Shown piece by piece: positions 13,658-26,342 of a stretch of 32,552 bases of DNA (the stretch's first letter is position 1; every line of letters starts with the position of its first letter). Where the stretch lies: positions 1 to 32,552 of the IMG/VR virus record IMGVR_UViG_3300049783_000750. One strand, given 5' to 3'. This stretch comes from a virus. The notes below the pieces were generated by a model. That model was not told where the DNA came from. It worked only from the letters and a program-made list of their open reading frames with translations, and made no database searches. Both the position numbers and the translations under genes were made by a program.

Positions 13658-14185
13658 ATGCTCTTAAAAACCGATGACCTAGGGGTCGTACGATTCAATA
13701 ATAGAAATTTAATGGATATGATTTATCACGGCCACATGGACAAGTGCCATGTGGTTCTTTGTGACCCAAGTGACGAGGTTGACAAATTCAATGCAAGGGC
13801 AGAGGAAATTGGCCTAGATCCCCTTATGAAATATGTTGTAATAGATGTTGATCAAAAGACGTTTGACGGAGTTTGCCAGGGCGAATGGTACATGCCAGAC
13901 AAATACAAGAAGATCAATCTAGAAGATTACTTGTGGGATAAACTACTAAAGCGAGAATCAGCTGAATACCCTCGTATGATAGATGAATTAACTGAGTTTC
14001 ACCGCCGAGGAATGCATGACTTGCTGCGCTACATGATCTACCTTGTAGACTTTATGCGCGAGAATGATATTGTCTGGGGCGTAGGCAGGGGCAGCAGCGT
14101 TGCAAGTTATATATTATTTTTGATCGGTATACACCGAATTGACAGTATCAAGCACGGGCTGGACTGGCAAGAATTTCTAAGATAA
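13658..14185 (+). CDS. DNA polymerase III alpha-like fragment protein (GRGS region only)
   Basis: 175 aa. Residues about 85-175 resemble the part of bacterial DnaE/PolC that enters the palm: a helical FHRRGMHDLLRYMIYLVDFMRE element, then NDIVWGVGRGSSVASYIL (residues 136-153), LIGIHRIDSIKHGL and a terminal WQEFLR, parallel to the DnaE pattern GPGRGS-aGSlvaY-LgItdiDPi-lLFERFL. The protein stops exactly where DnaE would continue into the PDxDxD catalytic aspartates, so it cannot polymerise on its own. The first 80 residues are not recognised. T4-like phages use a family B polymerase, so this may be a nucleotide- or DNA-binding accessory protein derived from DnaE. The gene has an intact frame. 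Confidence 0.78.
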   Translation: MLLKTDDLGVVRFNNRNLMDMIYHGHMDKCHVVLCDPSDEVDKFNARAEEIGLDPLMKYVVIDVDQKTFDGVCQGEWYMPDKYKKINLEDYLWDKLLKRESAEYPRMIDELTEFHRRGMHDLLRYMIYLVDFMRENDIVWGVGRGSSVASYILFLIGIHRIDSIKHGLDWQEFLR

Positions 14186-14187
14186 AC

Positions 14188-14208
14188 GATTGTACCAAAT
14201 GTACAATC
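14188..14208 (+). terminator. Hairpin between the DnaE-like gene and the next promoter
   Basis: GATTGTAC and GTACAATC form a perfect 8-bp stem around a 5-base loop (CAAAT), right after the stop of the DnaE-like gene. No T-run follows, so termination is not certain; an mRNA-end stabiliser or protein site is possible. Confidence 0.35.
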
Positions 14209-14213
14209 ATTGG

Positions 14214-14242
14214 TTGACACCAATCATAAGTAATGTTACATT
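14214..14242 (+). promoter_or_regulatory. Sigma70-like promoter with palindromic -35 region
   Basis: A perfect TTGACA (14214-14219) is followed after 17 bases by TACATT (14237-14242), a good host sigma70 pattern. The -35 box is embedded in the perfect inverted repeat ATTGGTTGACACCAAT (14209-14224), which could be a repressor or activator site. It lies in the only gap before the early/middle-type block. Confidence 0.5.
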
Positions 14243-14256
14243 ATAAGGAGATACAA

Positions 14257-14637
14257 ATGAAACAATCAGGTCGTAAAATCTACAAAAGTGCTAATGGTAA
14301 GAATATTGACCTCGATCTCTTGATTTCTCGAAACGAACTAACTCCAGCAGTCGGTAATGCCAAAGTCAACGCACGCGGCGATGAATTAGGTCCAGGAGGA
14401 CAAATAGTTCGAAAAAAAGAAAACGTGTTAAAAGACTATTACGCTCAACAACCGGGCATGGCAGAAGAATCTGTTTTAAAGCAAGCACCAGAAGTTGCAG
14501 AAGAAGTAGTAGTAGTAGTAAAACAAGAGACTGAGAAATCAAAGCCTACTACTGCGCAACTTGACAAGTGGATCGAAGATGACGACGGAAATTTTATTCA
14601 AGATAAATCTAAAAGTTCTACAGCTAAGAAAAGGTGA
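14257..14637 (+). CDS. Conserved-looking small protein of unknown function
   Basis: 126 aa from the ATG at 14257, chosen because TAAGGAG lies 6-7 bases upstream; an in-frame ATG at 14233 overlaps the promoter and has no ribosome-binding site. The N-terminal half is basic and ordered (KQSGRKIYKSANGKNIDLDL, then NELTPAVGNAKVNARGDELG), and the C-terminal half is acidic and low-complexity, with five consecutive Val codons from a (GTA)5 repeat at 14506-14520. It ends in a Lys-rich tail. It is the first gene behind the sigma70-like promoter, with the cochaperonin gene next. Function not recognised. Confidence 0.8.
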   Translation: MKQSGRKIYKSANGKNIDLDLLISRNELTPAVGNAKVNARGDELGPGGQIVRKKENVLKDYYAQQPGMAEESVLKQAPEVAEEVVVVVKQETEKSKPTTAQLDKWIEDDDGNFIQDKSKSSTAKKR

Positions 14638-14640
14638 TTA

Positions 14641-15048
14641 ATGGCAGGAAATTTTAACAAGGTTTTTAAAGGTGATTTGAAACCTATACACGATAGAGTT
14701 ATTGTAAACGACATGCACTTTGGTGAACAAAAAACCAATAGTGGATTAATTATCGCAGACGATAACGGCACAACACGCGGCGTCTATGCACGCTGGGGTC
14801 AAGTTTATGCCAAAGGTGACACTAACAAAGATAGCTACAACGTCGGTGATTGGATCCTAGTTGAACATGGTCGATGGACTAGAGGACTGAATGTTGACAA
14901 CGGAACTGGTTCTACAGAAGTGCGCATGGTTGATCCAGATGCAATTATAGGATGGCAAACAATAAAGCCAACTGGATTGACGTTTGGCAAAGAATACAAA
15001 GACGGCGAAGGTGCAACCTTTGATCCGCAAGATTTTGTGAGAGTATAA
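14641..15048 (+). CDS. GroES-like / T4 gp31-like cochaperonin
   Basis: 135 aa. The N-terminal LKPIHDRVIVNDM matches the opening beta-strand of GroES (MKPLHDRVIV). It is followed by a short mobile-loop region with TNSGLIIADD, where GroES has a loop ending GGIVL, then ARWGQVYAKG and VGDWILVEHGRWTRG, corresponding to the GroES VGDIV and beta-barrel strands. About 40 residues beyond the GroES length are present at the C-terminus, as in phage versions. T4 gp31 replaces GroES on host GroEL to fold the large capsid protein; the same job is likely here. A ribosome-binding site (AAAAGGTG) lies in the end of the previous gene. Its stop overlaps the next start (TAATG). Confidence 0.88.
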   Translation: MAGNFNKVFKGDLKPIHDRVIVNDMHFGEQKTNSGLIIADDNGTTRGVYARWGQVYAKGDTNKDSYNVGDWILVEHGRWTRGLNVDNGTGSTEVRMVDPDAIIGWQTIKPTGLTFGKEYKDGEGATFDPQDFVRV

Positions 15049-15688: not shown

Positions 15689-15712
15689 ATGTTATTATCA
15701 AGGAGTTTTTTT
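15664..15712 (+). terminator. Terminator-like hairpin that also sequesters a ribosome-binding site
   Basis: CTCCTTGAT (15664-15672) and ATCAAGGAG (15697-15705) pair perfectly over 9 bp, extendable to 12 bp with one G-T pair, around an 18-base loop, and are followed by seven T. In a transcript reading through from upstream this would act as an intrinsic terminator and hide the AAGGAG of the exonuclease gene. A transcript from the promoter at 15660-15688 starts after the left arm and leaves AAGGAG free. Confidence 0.55.
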
Positions 15713-16252
15713 ATGGCCTTACATGGCACAATCGATTTAGAGACACTGGACACAGTTCCAGGCGCAACAGTATTAAGTTTAGGTGCTGTAAAGTTTAATC
15801 CGTTCAGTACAACTGCTGAACCACATTCAGAACTATATATTAAGATATTAGTAGACGACCAACATGCTGCTGGCAGAACCAGCAGCGACAGCACAATTGA
15901 GTGGTGGGGAAGACAAGACCCGGCAATCATGGAAGAAGCATTTGATCAAACAGGTGCAGTAACCATGGAAGAAGCATTGCGCCAAGTGAGCAAGTGGAGT
16001 ATGGGAGTAGACGAATTTTGGGGGCAAGGTTACGGATTTGACTTTACGATGCTCGAAGACATGTATCGTAGCATGGGTAAACCCATTCCGTGGCAGTTTT
16101 GGCAAGTAATGGACAGCCGAACAATTACCAGGCGCATGCCCAAAGACCCACGCAAGGATATGCAAACTTCGTTGCACAACGCACTAGCCGATGCATACTT
16201 TCAAGCAAAGTCGATTCAAATTATATTTGATCACAACGGATGGAAAAAGTGA
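15713..16252 (+). CDS. DexA-like DEDDh 3'-5' exonuclease
   Basis: 179 aa from the ATG at 15713, which has AAGGAG 7 bases upstream; an in-frame ATG at 15689 would place its start inside the promoter region. DEDDh exonuclease motifs: TIDLETLD (D8, E10) followed by the typical ATVLSLGAVKF strand, YGFDFTMLE in the middle for the second aspartate, and HNALADA near the C-terminus for the His/Asp pair. This layout and length match T4 DexA (exonuclease A) and its relatives, which act on single-stranded DNA or RNA. It likely processes nucleic acid during infection; the precise substrate is not determined. The next gene starts inside its last codons. Confidence 0.87.
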   Translation: MALHGTIDLETLDTVPGATVLSLGAVKFNPFSTTAEPHSELYIKILVDDQHAAGRTSSDSTIEWWGRQDPAIMEEAFDQTGAVTMEEALRQVSKWSMGVDEFWGQGYGFDFTMLEDMYRSMGKPIPWQFWQVMDSRTITRRMPKDPRKDMQTSLHNALADAYFQAKSIQIIFDHNGWKK

Positions 16253-17137: not shown

Positions 17138-17357
17138 CGTATTAAATAAGCTACATGATATAGCAGATAAATTAAAAGCACTGGAAACACACTATTCTGC
17201 TAATAACAAGGAACCGTTATCAGACGAGGAAGTGAAGCTCCTTGAGGTGTTAAATGCCACAATCAATTCGTTGGATGATGTAGACGACGACGAAGACGCT
17301 GCAATCAACAACGAACAATCAAACGATACCCAAGACAAGAATGGAAACAGTAAATGA
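17130..17357 (+). CDS. Small acidic protein preceding the clamp-loader gene
   Basis: 75 aa from the ATG at 17130, whose ATGAATAG overlaps the previous stop; a TTG at 17094 would be a poorer start. The first half is helical (LHDIADKLKALETHYS, then SDEEVKLLEVLNATINSL) and the second half is an acidic, Asn/Asp-rich disordered tail (DDVDDDEDAAINNEQ). No motif recognised. It abuts gene 44 with a 4-base overlap, the position where a small replication partner could lie, but it does not resemble T4 gp62. Confidence 0.72.
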   Translation: MNSVLNKLHDIADKLKALETHYSANNKEPLSDEEVKLLEVLNATINSLDDVDDDEDAAINNEQSNDTQDKNGNSK

Positions 17358-18274
17358 TAGAACTATGGACAGACAAGTATCGACCTAAGACGATGGACGG
17401 ATACGTGTTTCGCGACAGTAAGCAGCAAGCTCAAGTAGCGCGGTGGATTGCTGATAAATCAATTCCACATTTGTTGTTGTCGGGCACAGCAGGAACAGGA
17501 AAAACATCAATGGCTAAGATGTTGATTCATGAGCTCGACGTGGAAGAAATGGACGTGATGGAAGTCAACGCCAGCAGAGAAAACAAGATTGAATTTATTA
17601 GAGAAAAGATTGTTCCGTTCCTTAACACCATTCCGTGGGGCGCTTTCAAAGTAATACTATTGGACGAAGCAGACAGACTGTCGCCGCAGGGTCAAGATTC
17701 ATTAAAAGGCACAATTGAACAGTATTCTGGATATGCTAGATTTATTCTAACCACCAACAAGCCCAACATGATTTCACCGCCGTTGCACAGTCGTTGTTCA
17801 CAATTTCACTTTGCTAAAATTGACCAAGTTGAGTTTACTGCAAGACTGGCTCATATTCTTATTGAAGAACATATAAAGTTTGACATCGAAACACTGGACA
17901 AATATGTTAAAGTTGTGTATCCTGACTTGAGAAAAGCTATCAGTCTTATACAAGAAAATTCAATTGACGGATCTCTTACTGCTGTCGAAGATGCTGATAC
18001 CGGAATAGCCGATTGGAAGGTTGGAATGGTAGATCTGTTCAAAGAAGGCAAGATACAAGAAGCACGTAAGCTGTTGTGCGGAACAGTTCGAGCAGATGAC
18101 ATGGAAGAAATCTATCGCTGGTTGTATGATAACATTGATTTGTTTGGCAACGAAGAGACTCAGCAAAGTGCAATACTTACAATCAAACAAGGATTAGTAG
18201 ATCATGCACTAGTTGTTGATCCAGAGATTAACCTAAGTGCAACATTGATTAGATTGGCAAGATTAAATGCCTAA
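17354..18274 (+). CDS. 44: Clamp-loader ATPase subunit, T4 gp44-like
   Basis: 306 aa AAA+ ATPase of the clamp-loader family. It opens with LWTDKYRPKTMDGYV, the RFC/gp44 hallmark; Walker A is GTAGTGKTS (residues 44-52), Walker B is ILLDEAD (101-107), sensor 1 is LTTNK (132-136), and the SRC arginine-finger motif is at 146-148. In T4, gp44 (four copies) with gp62 loads the gp45 sliding clamp at primer ends. No gp62-like gene follows; the next gene is a ferredoxin, so the second subunit must lie elsewhere. The start overlaps the previous gene by 4 bases (ATGA). Assignment is firm. Confidence 0.93.
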   Translation: MIELWTDKYRPKTMDGYVFRDSKQQAQVARWIADKSIPHLLLSGTAGTGKTSMAKMLIHELDVEEMDVMEVNASRENKIEFIREKIVPFLNTIPWGAFKVILLDEADRLSPQGQDSLKGTIEQYSGYARFILTTNKPNMISPPLHSRCSQFHFAKIDQVEFTARLAHILIEEHIKFDIETLDKYVKVVYPDLRKAISLIQENSIDGSLTAVEDADTGIADWKVGMVDLFKEGKIQEARKLLCGTVRADDMEEIYRWLYDNIDLFGNEETQQSAILTIKQGLVDHALVVDPEINLSATLIRLARLNA

Positions 18275-18310: not shown

Positions 18311-18649
18311 ATGACTTATATCGTTGATGATGCTTGCATTGCCTGCAAGTACACCGATTGTGTCGAAGTATGTCCAGTTGACTGTTTTTACGAAGGTGAA
18401 AACATGCTGGTCATACACCCGGACGAATGCATTGACTGCGGCGTTTGTGAACCAGAATGCCCTGCTGATGCTATCCATCCCGACACTGCTCCAGGAGCAA
18501 GCGACTGGATAGCATTCAATCTCAAGTATTCCGAGATGTGGCCTGTTATAATTACCAAGAAAGACCAACTGCCCACTGCTGTAGAAATGGATGGCAAAGA
18601 AGGCAAAATAAAACTATTCTCGGAAGAGCCGGGTGTAGGCGATGATTGA
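18311..18649 (+). CDS. fdxA: 7Fe ferredoxin (FdxA type)
   Basis: 112 aa, near full identity in pattern to bacterial FdxA/FdI ferredoxins. All nine cysteines fall at C9, C12, C17, C21, C25, C40, C43, C46 and C50, within [18 protein letters not shown] and [13 protein letters not shown], the arrangement that holds one [3Fe-4S] and one [4Fe-4S] cluster. The C-terminal extension with WPVIITKKD is also typical. It is a soluble cytoplasmic electron carrier. A very strong ribosome-binding site (AGGAGG, 18299-18304) suggests high expression; this site is partly within a 7-bp inverted repeat CCTAATA/TATTAGG (18270-18301). The gene was probably acquired from a bacterial host. Which redox partner it serves in infection is unknown. 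Confidence 0.93.
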
Positions 18650-25541: not shown

Positions 25542-26342
25542 ATGAGCAACCATTACAGCATTCTAGGCGTTTCTAATACAGCAAGTCAAGACCAAATCAA
25601 GCAAGCGTATCGCAAGCTTGCCAAGCAGCACCATCCCGACACCGGCGGCGACGAAACAAAATTCAAAGAAGTTAACGCAGCATACCAGACGTTGAAAGAT
25701 GAAAACAAACGGCAAGAGTACGACCAGCCTGCACAAAAAATGAACATTAACCCTACTGACTTTGAGGATATGTTTTCGTCATTTTTTAATCAGAATAATT
25801 TACATCGGCGCAACAAGGATATTAAAATTGCAGTTACTATTACTTTAGAAGAAGTAGCAACTGGCAAAGAAATAATAGCAAAGTATATACTAGCAGACGG
25901 GCAACATGCAACTGCAACTATTAAGATTCACGCAGGTGCCGAAAACGGTGAAGCAATTAGATATAAAGGGCTTGGGGATAATGCTGCTAGTCAAATACCA
26001 CGTGGAGACTTGCTGGTATTTATAAATGTATTGCAGCATAAACAGTTTGACAGAGACAAAAATCACCTGTATACTACTTATGACATCAGTGTGATTGACC
26101 TTATATTGGGTAGAAAAATAAATGTTCAAACGTTATTAGGCCATAACATTGCAGTTAACATACCCAAGGGCACACAACCAGGTACTATTATGAGTGTAAC
26201 AGGTCACGGGCTACCTAACCCTAGATCAGGCATCAATGGAAACTTCCATATTGTACTAAAAGGAAAAGTGCCTACGCTACTTGACGACAATATTTTAACA
26301 AGGATTAAAGATATAAATGATGATATTAATAAAAGCGCCTAG
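25542..26342 (+). CDS. DnaJ/CbpA-like cochaperone
   Basis: 266 aa. An N-terminal J domain (HYSILGVSNTASQDQIKQAY, HPD at residues 31-33, ending near QEYDQPA) is followed directly by two C-terminal substrate-binding beta domains (IKIAVTITLEEVATGKEI, GLGDNAASQIPRGDLLVFIN, VNIPKGTQPGTIMSVTGHGL). The Gly/Phe-rich linker is very short (FSSFFNQNN) and there is no zinc-binding domain, so it is closer to CbpA (type II) than to DnaJ. The HPD motif implies that it can stimulate host DnaK. It overlaps the deformylase gene by 26 bases, beginning a three-gene protein-handling cassette. The start has no strong ribosome-binding site. Confidence 0.92.
   Translation: MSNHYSILGVSNTASQDQIKQAYRKLAKQHHPDTGGDETKFKEVNAAYQTLKDENKRQEYDQPAQKMNINPTDFEDMFSSFFNQNNLHRRNKDIKIAVTITLEEVATGKEIIAKYILADGQHATATIKIHAGAENGEAIRYKGLGDNAASQIPRGDLLVFINVLQHKQFDRDKNHLYTTYDISVIDLILGRKINVQTLLGHNIAVNIPKGTQPGTIMSVTGHGLPNPRSGINGNFHIVLKGKVPTLLDDNILTRIKDINDDINKSA

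Follow-up and report, generated by a model that had tools for sequence, protein, structure and literature searches.

A phage gene for the probable N-terminal subunit of a split, minimal family C DNA polymerase

A split minimal form of the alpha subunit of DNA polymerase III (Pol III) has been described in group 2.2 jumbo phages, in a short in silico account (Iyer et al. 2021, Viruses 13:63, PMC7824862), and a truncated protein in phage CBB had been noted by the CBB authors in 2017 (PMC5259590). A division over two genes is also on record for cyanobacterial DnaE, which, as far as stated in a paper citing Caspi et al. 2003 (PMC3919608), is split at an intein. No experimental test of the split phage polymerase was found in the open-access literature searched, most subscription journals being outside that coverage. 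Here, we analyzed a stretch of virus DNA of 32,552 nucleotides, positions 1 to 32,552 of IMG/VR record IMGVR_UViG_3300049783_000750 (referred to as the window), in which an open reading frame (ORF) at positions 13658 to 14185 encodes a piece of DnaE. Its product and homologues are called piece 1, and the protein that carries the catalytic aspartates in related phages is called piece 2.

The original prediction regarded a family C polymerase piece in a T4-like phage as unexpected. Since the 2021 description, this kind of split polymerase has been known from sequence, and the window carries a real and conserved half of it. It is probable, in our view, that the product of the window ORF is the N-terminal of two subunits that form a minimal Pol III alpha (family C), with piece 2 encoded elsewhere, and that the two halves rebuild the palm and work as a limited polymerase beside a family B replicase. 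This reading is based on homology and an exact breakpoint, together with conservation and selection, joint presence of the halves in relatives, and the fold predicted for each half on its own.

The N-terminal half encoded in the window

The ORF runs without interruption from an ATG start codon to a TAA stop codon. Residues 104 to 174 of its product matched the Pfam family DNA_pol3_alpha (PF07733) with an E-value of 4.4e-10 and 40.1 bits, the curated cut-off being 23.9, and residues 6 to 175 matched nearly the whole profile of PHROG 11127 (phrog_11127, "DNA polymerase") at 1.6e-41. Residues 76 to 175 correspond to the first part of the family C (DnaE/PolC) palm, with the motif G-x-GRGSS inside and EFLR at the C-terminal end; GRGSS and the terminal EFLR are both located where the original prediction had placed them. 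GRGS aligned with residues 361 to 364 of Escherichia coli DnaE. At the end point of piece 1, E. coli DnaE reads on as FLN-PERVS-MPDFDVDF, and piece 1 stops at FL.

An AlphaFold model of piece 1, based on 79 sequences, had a predicted local distance difference test (pLDDT) score of 90.4 and a predicted template modeling (pTM) score of 0.69. Its residues 76 to 175 superposed on residues 305 to 413 of Mycobacterium tuberculosis (Mtb) DnaE1 (5lew; Z 13.2, 2.1 Å over 97 residues) on residues 277 to 393 of E. coli DnaE (2hnh; Z 10.5), and on residues 823 to 965 of PolC (Z 8.4). All 12 rows listed in the structure comparison were family C polymerases. The overlay on the DnaE palm, proposed earlier as a check, thus placed this region at the start of that palm with Z scores of 10.5 to 13.2. 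No structural match for residues 1 to 75 was reported in the search with the whole model. These residues (window 13658 to 13882) were confidently predicted and occupy the place of the PHP domain in DnaE.

A first scan of IMG/VR yielded 339 relatives of piece 1, and later scans yielded at least 595 to 597. With relatives in these numbers, the observation is far beyond chance. About 175 homologues were read at their C-terminal end, which was EFLR, EFLK, EFFR, or a close variant, followed by at most a few residues; one further match in this set was E. coli DnaE itself. Invariant in the 79 aligned sequences were GxGRGSS, R106, E110, S150, and F173. Among close members, the median pairwise ratio of nonsynonymous to synonymous substitution rates (dN/dS) was 0.14 for piece 1 and 0.11 for piece 2, and the value of 0.14 means that the piece 1 gene is under purifying selection. 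The ORF, the Pfam and PHROG matches, the structure matches, and the dN/dS survey therefore agree with the earlier claim of an intact and maintained DnaE palm piece that contains GRGS and ends before PDxDxD.

Sequenced phages with piece 1 comprise the RaK2/121Q/CBB/GAP32 group, PA5oct/MIJ3, XacN1, Phosso, Atu_ph07, SCTP-2, and Vibrio 2.275.O. A piece 1 of 307 residues in locus L367 was considered as a possible fusion and rejected, its length being explained by the choice of a far-upstream start codon. A cellular origin was likewise rejected: close matches in the genome scan numbered just two, both on contigs of metagenome-assembled genomes that are labeled archaeal and may be phage. Other matches in cellular genomes were weak, at no more than 33% identity, and look like ordinary DnaE. 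Four further families, PHROGs 7513, 13169, 11165, and 12219 (461 to 823 residues), were matched by the window ORF or by piece 2 and resemble DnaE near the same palm or fingers region; they may represent truncated or differently divided DnaE genes.

The second half in related phages

The original prediction described the fragment as standing alone. In the same kind of genome, however, the catalytic half is present as a separate gene. Searching ten whole records with a model of the DnaE fingers revealed a second ORF of about 190 to 222 residues in seven of them, mostly under the curated cut-off. In an alignment of six of the seven, DIDID stood at the N terminus or close to it, K-x-D was invariant, and the motifs RPxK and KxHA were present; all six matched PHROG 11778 (phrog_11778, "DNA polymerase") at 4e-58 or better. 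A profile search for piece 2 found it in 9 of 11 records, including MIJ3, Vibrio 2.275.O, and one IMG/VR relative of the window.

Piece 2 was collinear with E. coli DnaE at four motifs: residues 399 to 420 (PDFDVDF), 537 to 559 (third Asp), 596 to 641, and 752 to 767 (FNKSHS). Its model, based on 73 sequences (pLDDT 95.1, pTM 0.85), placed 183 of 185 residues on Taq DnaE 461 to 837 (Z 10.0) and 182 residues on E. coli DnaE 400 to 780 (Z 9.2), and the best chain outside family C reached only Z 3.2. From these matches and those of piece 1, it follows that the two pieces together tile E. coli DnaE from 277 to 780, with the cut between 393 and 400.

Residues D3, D5, D7, K63-x-D65, R132-P133, K162, and H165 were invariant in the 73 sequences. 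By alignment and motif position they correspond to E. coli D401, D403, D405, K553-x-D555, R639-P640, K758 or its neighbor, and H760. In DnaE, D401, D403, and D555 are the active-site aspartates, and H760 is the presumptive steric gate (PMC8485763). The nearly invariant R11 of piece 2, within the DR that follows DIDIDF, falls by our own positional match on D431/R432 of Mtb DnaE1, which line the template groove (PMC12641269). The genes also begin close to this motif. The best start codon was the Met of MPDxDxD in 41 of 95 piece 2 genes and stood directly before DxDxD in ten more; in all 95 it lay within 18 residues of the motif, many of the genes having a Shine-Dalgarno-like sequence. One metagenomic homologue (L165:5995-6543) reads PDIVID in place of PDIDID, so that the counterpart of E. 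coli D403 in the alignment is no longer Asp. It is possibly an inactive variant or a sequencing error and was left out of the 73-sequence alignment.

The two halves occur together almost without exception. Among the matches listed, 60 phage records carried piece 2; 58 of these were also in the piece 1 list, and in one more, the complete 141-kb genome of Alishewanella phage Slicko01, piece 1 was recovered by profile at 8.6e-17, giving 59 of 60. The sole exception was an unverified record of 109 kb. Most of the long IMG/VR contigs of 200 to 561 kb carried both halves, and those without one are of uncertain completeness. Protein distances of piece 1 and piece 2 were correlated across 21 genomes (r 0.85, a value reached in none of 5,000 permutations), which shows joint inheritance and not binding, as shared ancestry alone would give this r. 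It was also observed that both halves lie about 11 kb apart in the complete 141-kb Alishewanella phage genome (OQ508956.1, loci L453 and L454), which is under the limit for jumbo phages (>200 kb). There they lie near clamp loader and primase/helicase genes.

Proposed assembly of the halves and alternative explanations

In the proposed mechanism, piece 1 would supply the half of the palm with the GS motif, and piece 2, starting at PDxDxD, would supply the three catalytic aspartates and reduced fingers with the steric-gate His. The two independently translated proteins are expected to bind noncovalently, to meet at the active site, and so to rebuild the palm; the dimer could then extend primers by two-metal-ion catalysis. 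Its job beside the family B replicase would probably be a limited one, such as primer extension, gap filling, or lesion bypass.

Large parts of DnaE are absent from the pair. Piece 1 is without the PHP domain, and no PHP domain was found in trans, PF02811 matching none of 12 whole records while 14 of 14 control genomes were positive. The thumb is mostly gone, about 23 residues between PDxDxD and the His of HAGG taking the place of E. coli residues 406 to 510 (105 residues). The fingers of piece 2 are shortened by about 60 residues, RRAMGKK included, and all regions of DnaE beyond the fingers, namely, the HhH, OB, and clamp- and tau-binding regions, are absent. Given these losses, the pair should be distributive or need other replisome proteins to grip DNA. 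A search for a third DnaE piece with PF07733 and PF17657 over ten records yielded nothing convincing. One candidate at CBB 53183 (PF07733, E 6e-4) was rejected as its match crosses three stop codons, and those at Vibrio 123058 (E 0.06) and CBB 198044 (E 0.02) are weak and lie within longer ORFs.

It should be noted that several observations weigh against a two-protein polymerase. DNA synthesis could be abolished where most of the thumb and the RRAMGKK part of the fingers are missing. Foldseek E-values for piece 1 were weak when taken alone, the best being 7.8e-3. Piece 2 was not found by profile search on the window's own 32.5-kb contig, a fragment of insufficient length to include it (related contigs reach 251 to 256 kb), nor was it found on a 251-kb contig from the nearest distinct relative (about 71 to 73% identical). 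The same 251-kb contig gave no DnaB_C (gp41) match either. As gp41 lies near piece 2 in relatives, and three related contigs carry piece 2 as well as gp41, we read the missing piece 2 as incompleteness of that contig, which is not proven.

The strongest competitor, which we nevertheless hold to be unlikely, is that the pair assembles without DNA polymerase activity and serves the phage replisome as a scaffold binding deoxynucleoside triphosphates (dNTPs) and Mg, as a nucleotide sensor, or as a template-independent nucleotidyltransferase. The loss of the thumb, PHP, HhH/OB, and clamp-binding parts and of about 60 fingers residues would fit such a role. So would the family B polymerase that these phages already possess: the T4-like enzyme was present in 10 of 10 related records tested, in agreement with the T4-like lineage predicted at the outset. 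A pure scaffold, however, would need neither the three catalytic aspartates nor the steric-gate His, all of which are invariant in the 73 sequences, and the conserved DR after DIDIDF at the template-groove position of DnaE argues in the same direction. As a separate observation, matches to the family B polymerase (gp43) were split over two or three ORFs in G001:C1:132627-136244 and in MIJ3 (W02, 124889 to 128666).

DnaE meets its partner subunits via its PHP and C-terminal regions. This bears on the proposal, made in the original prediction, that the fragment acts alone, either by binding DNA or dNTPs or by disturbing the host replicase, which could occur through mimicry of part of DnaE. Piece 1 does resemble part of the host enzyme, but it is without the PHP and C-terminal regions used for those contacts. 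Its almost strict co-occurrence with piece 2, its slow evolution, and its retention in phages whose hosts differ widely, with synteny of replication genes, make a lone function very improbable, and half of an enzyme is the better reading.

We give scarcely any credence to a joining of the halves into one chain by a split intein or a trans-splicing intron. A putative split intein has been reported in the PolB (gp43-like) genes of the relative MIJ3 (PMC6892783), which lends the idea some plausibility. In the members read, the end of piece 1 (EFLR and at most a few residues) and the start of piece 2 (no more than 18 residues ahead of DxDxD, and frequently preceded by a Shine-Dalgarno sequence), however, leave no room for intein halves, and the window gave no Rfam match and hence no known intron. 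For both reasons, two separately translated proteins are the simplest reading. The view of a captured host dnaE in decay, which the strong reduction of the polymerase might suggest, can be dismissed: it is contradicted by the selection data (dN/dS of 0.14 and 0.11), by identical end points in the members read, and by the invariant active site.

Gene neighborhood and comparison with known systems

Table 1. Features of the piece 1 locus and genes flanking piece 2 in related phages
Feature	Coordinates	Strand	Remarks
Piece 1, N-terminal subunit of split minimal family C DNA polymerase (probable)	13658..14185	+	175 residues
GVGRGSSVAS coding stretch, piece 1 residues 141-150	14078..14107	+	GS (NTP-side) motif of nucleotidyltransferase palm
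phrog_14844-like small protein	14233..14637	+	Directly downstream of piece 1
GroES/gp31-like co-chaperonin	14641..15048	+	Cpn10 PF00166 4.9e-5 (above cut-off); phrog_931
T4 gp44-like clamp loader ATPase	17354..18274	+	phrog_168 1.8e-73; synteny kept in related phages
phrog_11637-like gene	L196:8573-8941	-	About 120 residues, basic C terminus
phrog_11637-like gene, 121Q gp17	L100:4908-5261	-	

The features of the locus are collected in Table 1. An inverted repeat, GATTGTAC-CAAAT-GTACAATC, lies at window positions 14187 to 14210, directly 3' of the piece 1 stop codon, and is possibly a processing or termination hairpin. The next gene is phrog_14844, which directly follows piece 1 in 220 of the 225 loci that could be tested. 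Its start in the window is more likely the ATG at 14257, where a Shine-Dalgarno sequence is present; in its product, the N-terminal motif GNxxxNARGDxxGxGG is conserved and the charged tail varies. The gp31-like gene occurs in the same order in 121Q, MIJ3, Phosso, and Vibrio 2.275.O, and the gp44-like neighbor links the piece 1 locus to replication. Positions 15689 to 16252, on the stretch that separates piece 1 from the clamp loader gene, encode an Rv2179c-like 3'-5' exonuclease (8.5e-34), which by this match is a possible candidate for a proofreader. Host-like genes in the window include a UvdE UV-endonuclease (26 to 1036), a ferredoxin (18311 to 18649), and DnaJ (25542 to 26342).

In relatives, piece 2 is neighbored by uvsW, gp61 primase, and gp41 helicase. 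A phrog_11637 gene lies downstream of piece 2 on the opposite strand, in convergent orientation, in 158 of 160 loci, usually abutting or overlapping its 3' end; the protein gave no Pfam match. In a scan of 50,697 phage records, those listed for phrog_14844 and phrog_11637 were split-polymerase phages. The two small proteins are candidates for partners of the halves, and the association may reflect no more than shared ancestry. It was not met in the literature, in which no search aimed at it was made. A more speculative proposal is a phage-specific module of four proteins, piece 1 with phrog_14844 and piece 2 with phrog_11637, in which the two small proteins would stand in for what the halves have lost in thumb, PHP, or clamp-binding functions, yielding a family C polymerase built of small subunits. 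We regard this as doubtful.

If active, the pair would amount to a family C polymerase of very small size, in which two proteins meet at the metal-binding motif to form the active site. It could then be used to find out which regions of Pol III alpha catalysis truly requires. T4-type phages would then run two unrelated polymerases.

Like bacterial DnaE and PolC, the pair has the nucleotidyltransferase fold (Polbeta-like) palm, the GS motif, PDxDxD, the third Asp, the steric-gate His, and the fingers motifs. Unlike these enzymes, which are single polypeptides, the phage pair comes from two separate ORFs, has shortened fingers, and is without the PHP domain, most of the thumb, and the HhH, OB, and clamp- and tau-binding regions. 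Cyanobacterial split DnaE has an intein at the split, whereas the phage halves contain no intein sequences. PHROG 11127 and PHROG 11778 are the same families as pieces 1 and 2, respectively, but their labels are silent on both being halves of one enzyme. By description, the group 2.2 system of Iyer et al. (2021) is the same system as the one described here, and the same conclusion was reached. That account concerned sequenced jumbo phages; the present analysis adds a metagenomic clade, the exact breakpoint, predicted folds, selection, and co-occurrence counts and, beyond these, a complete 141-kb phage with both halves and two conserved flanking genes.
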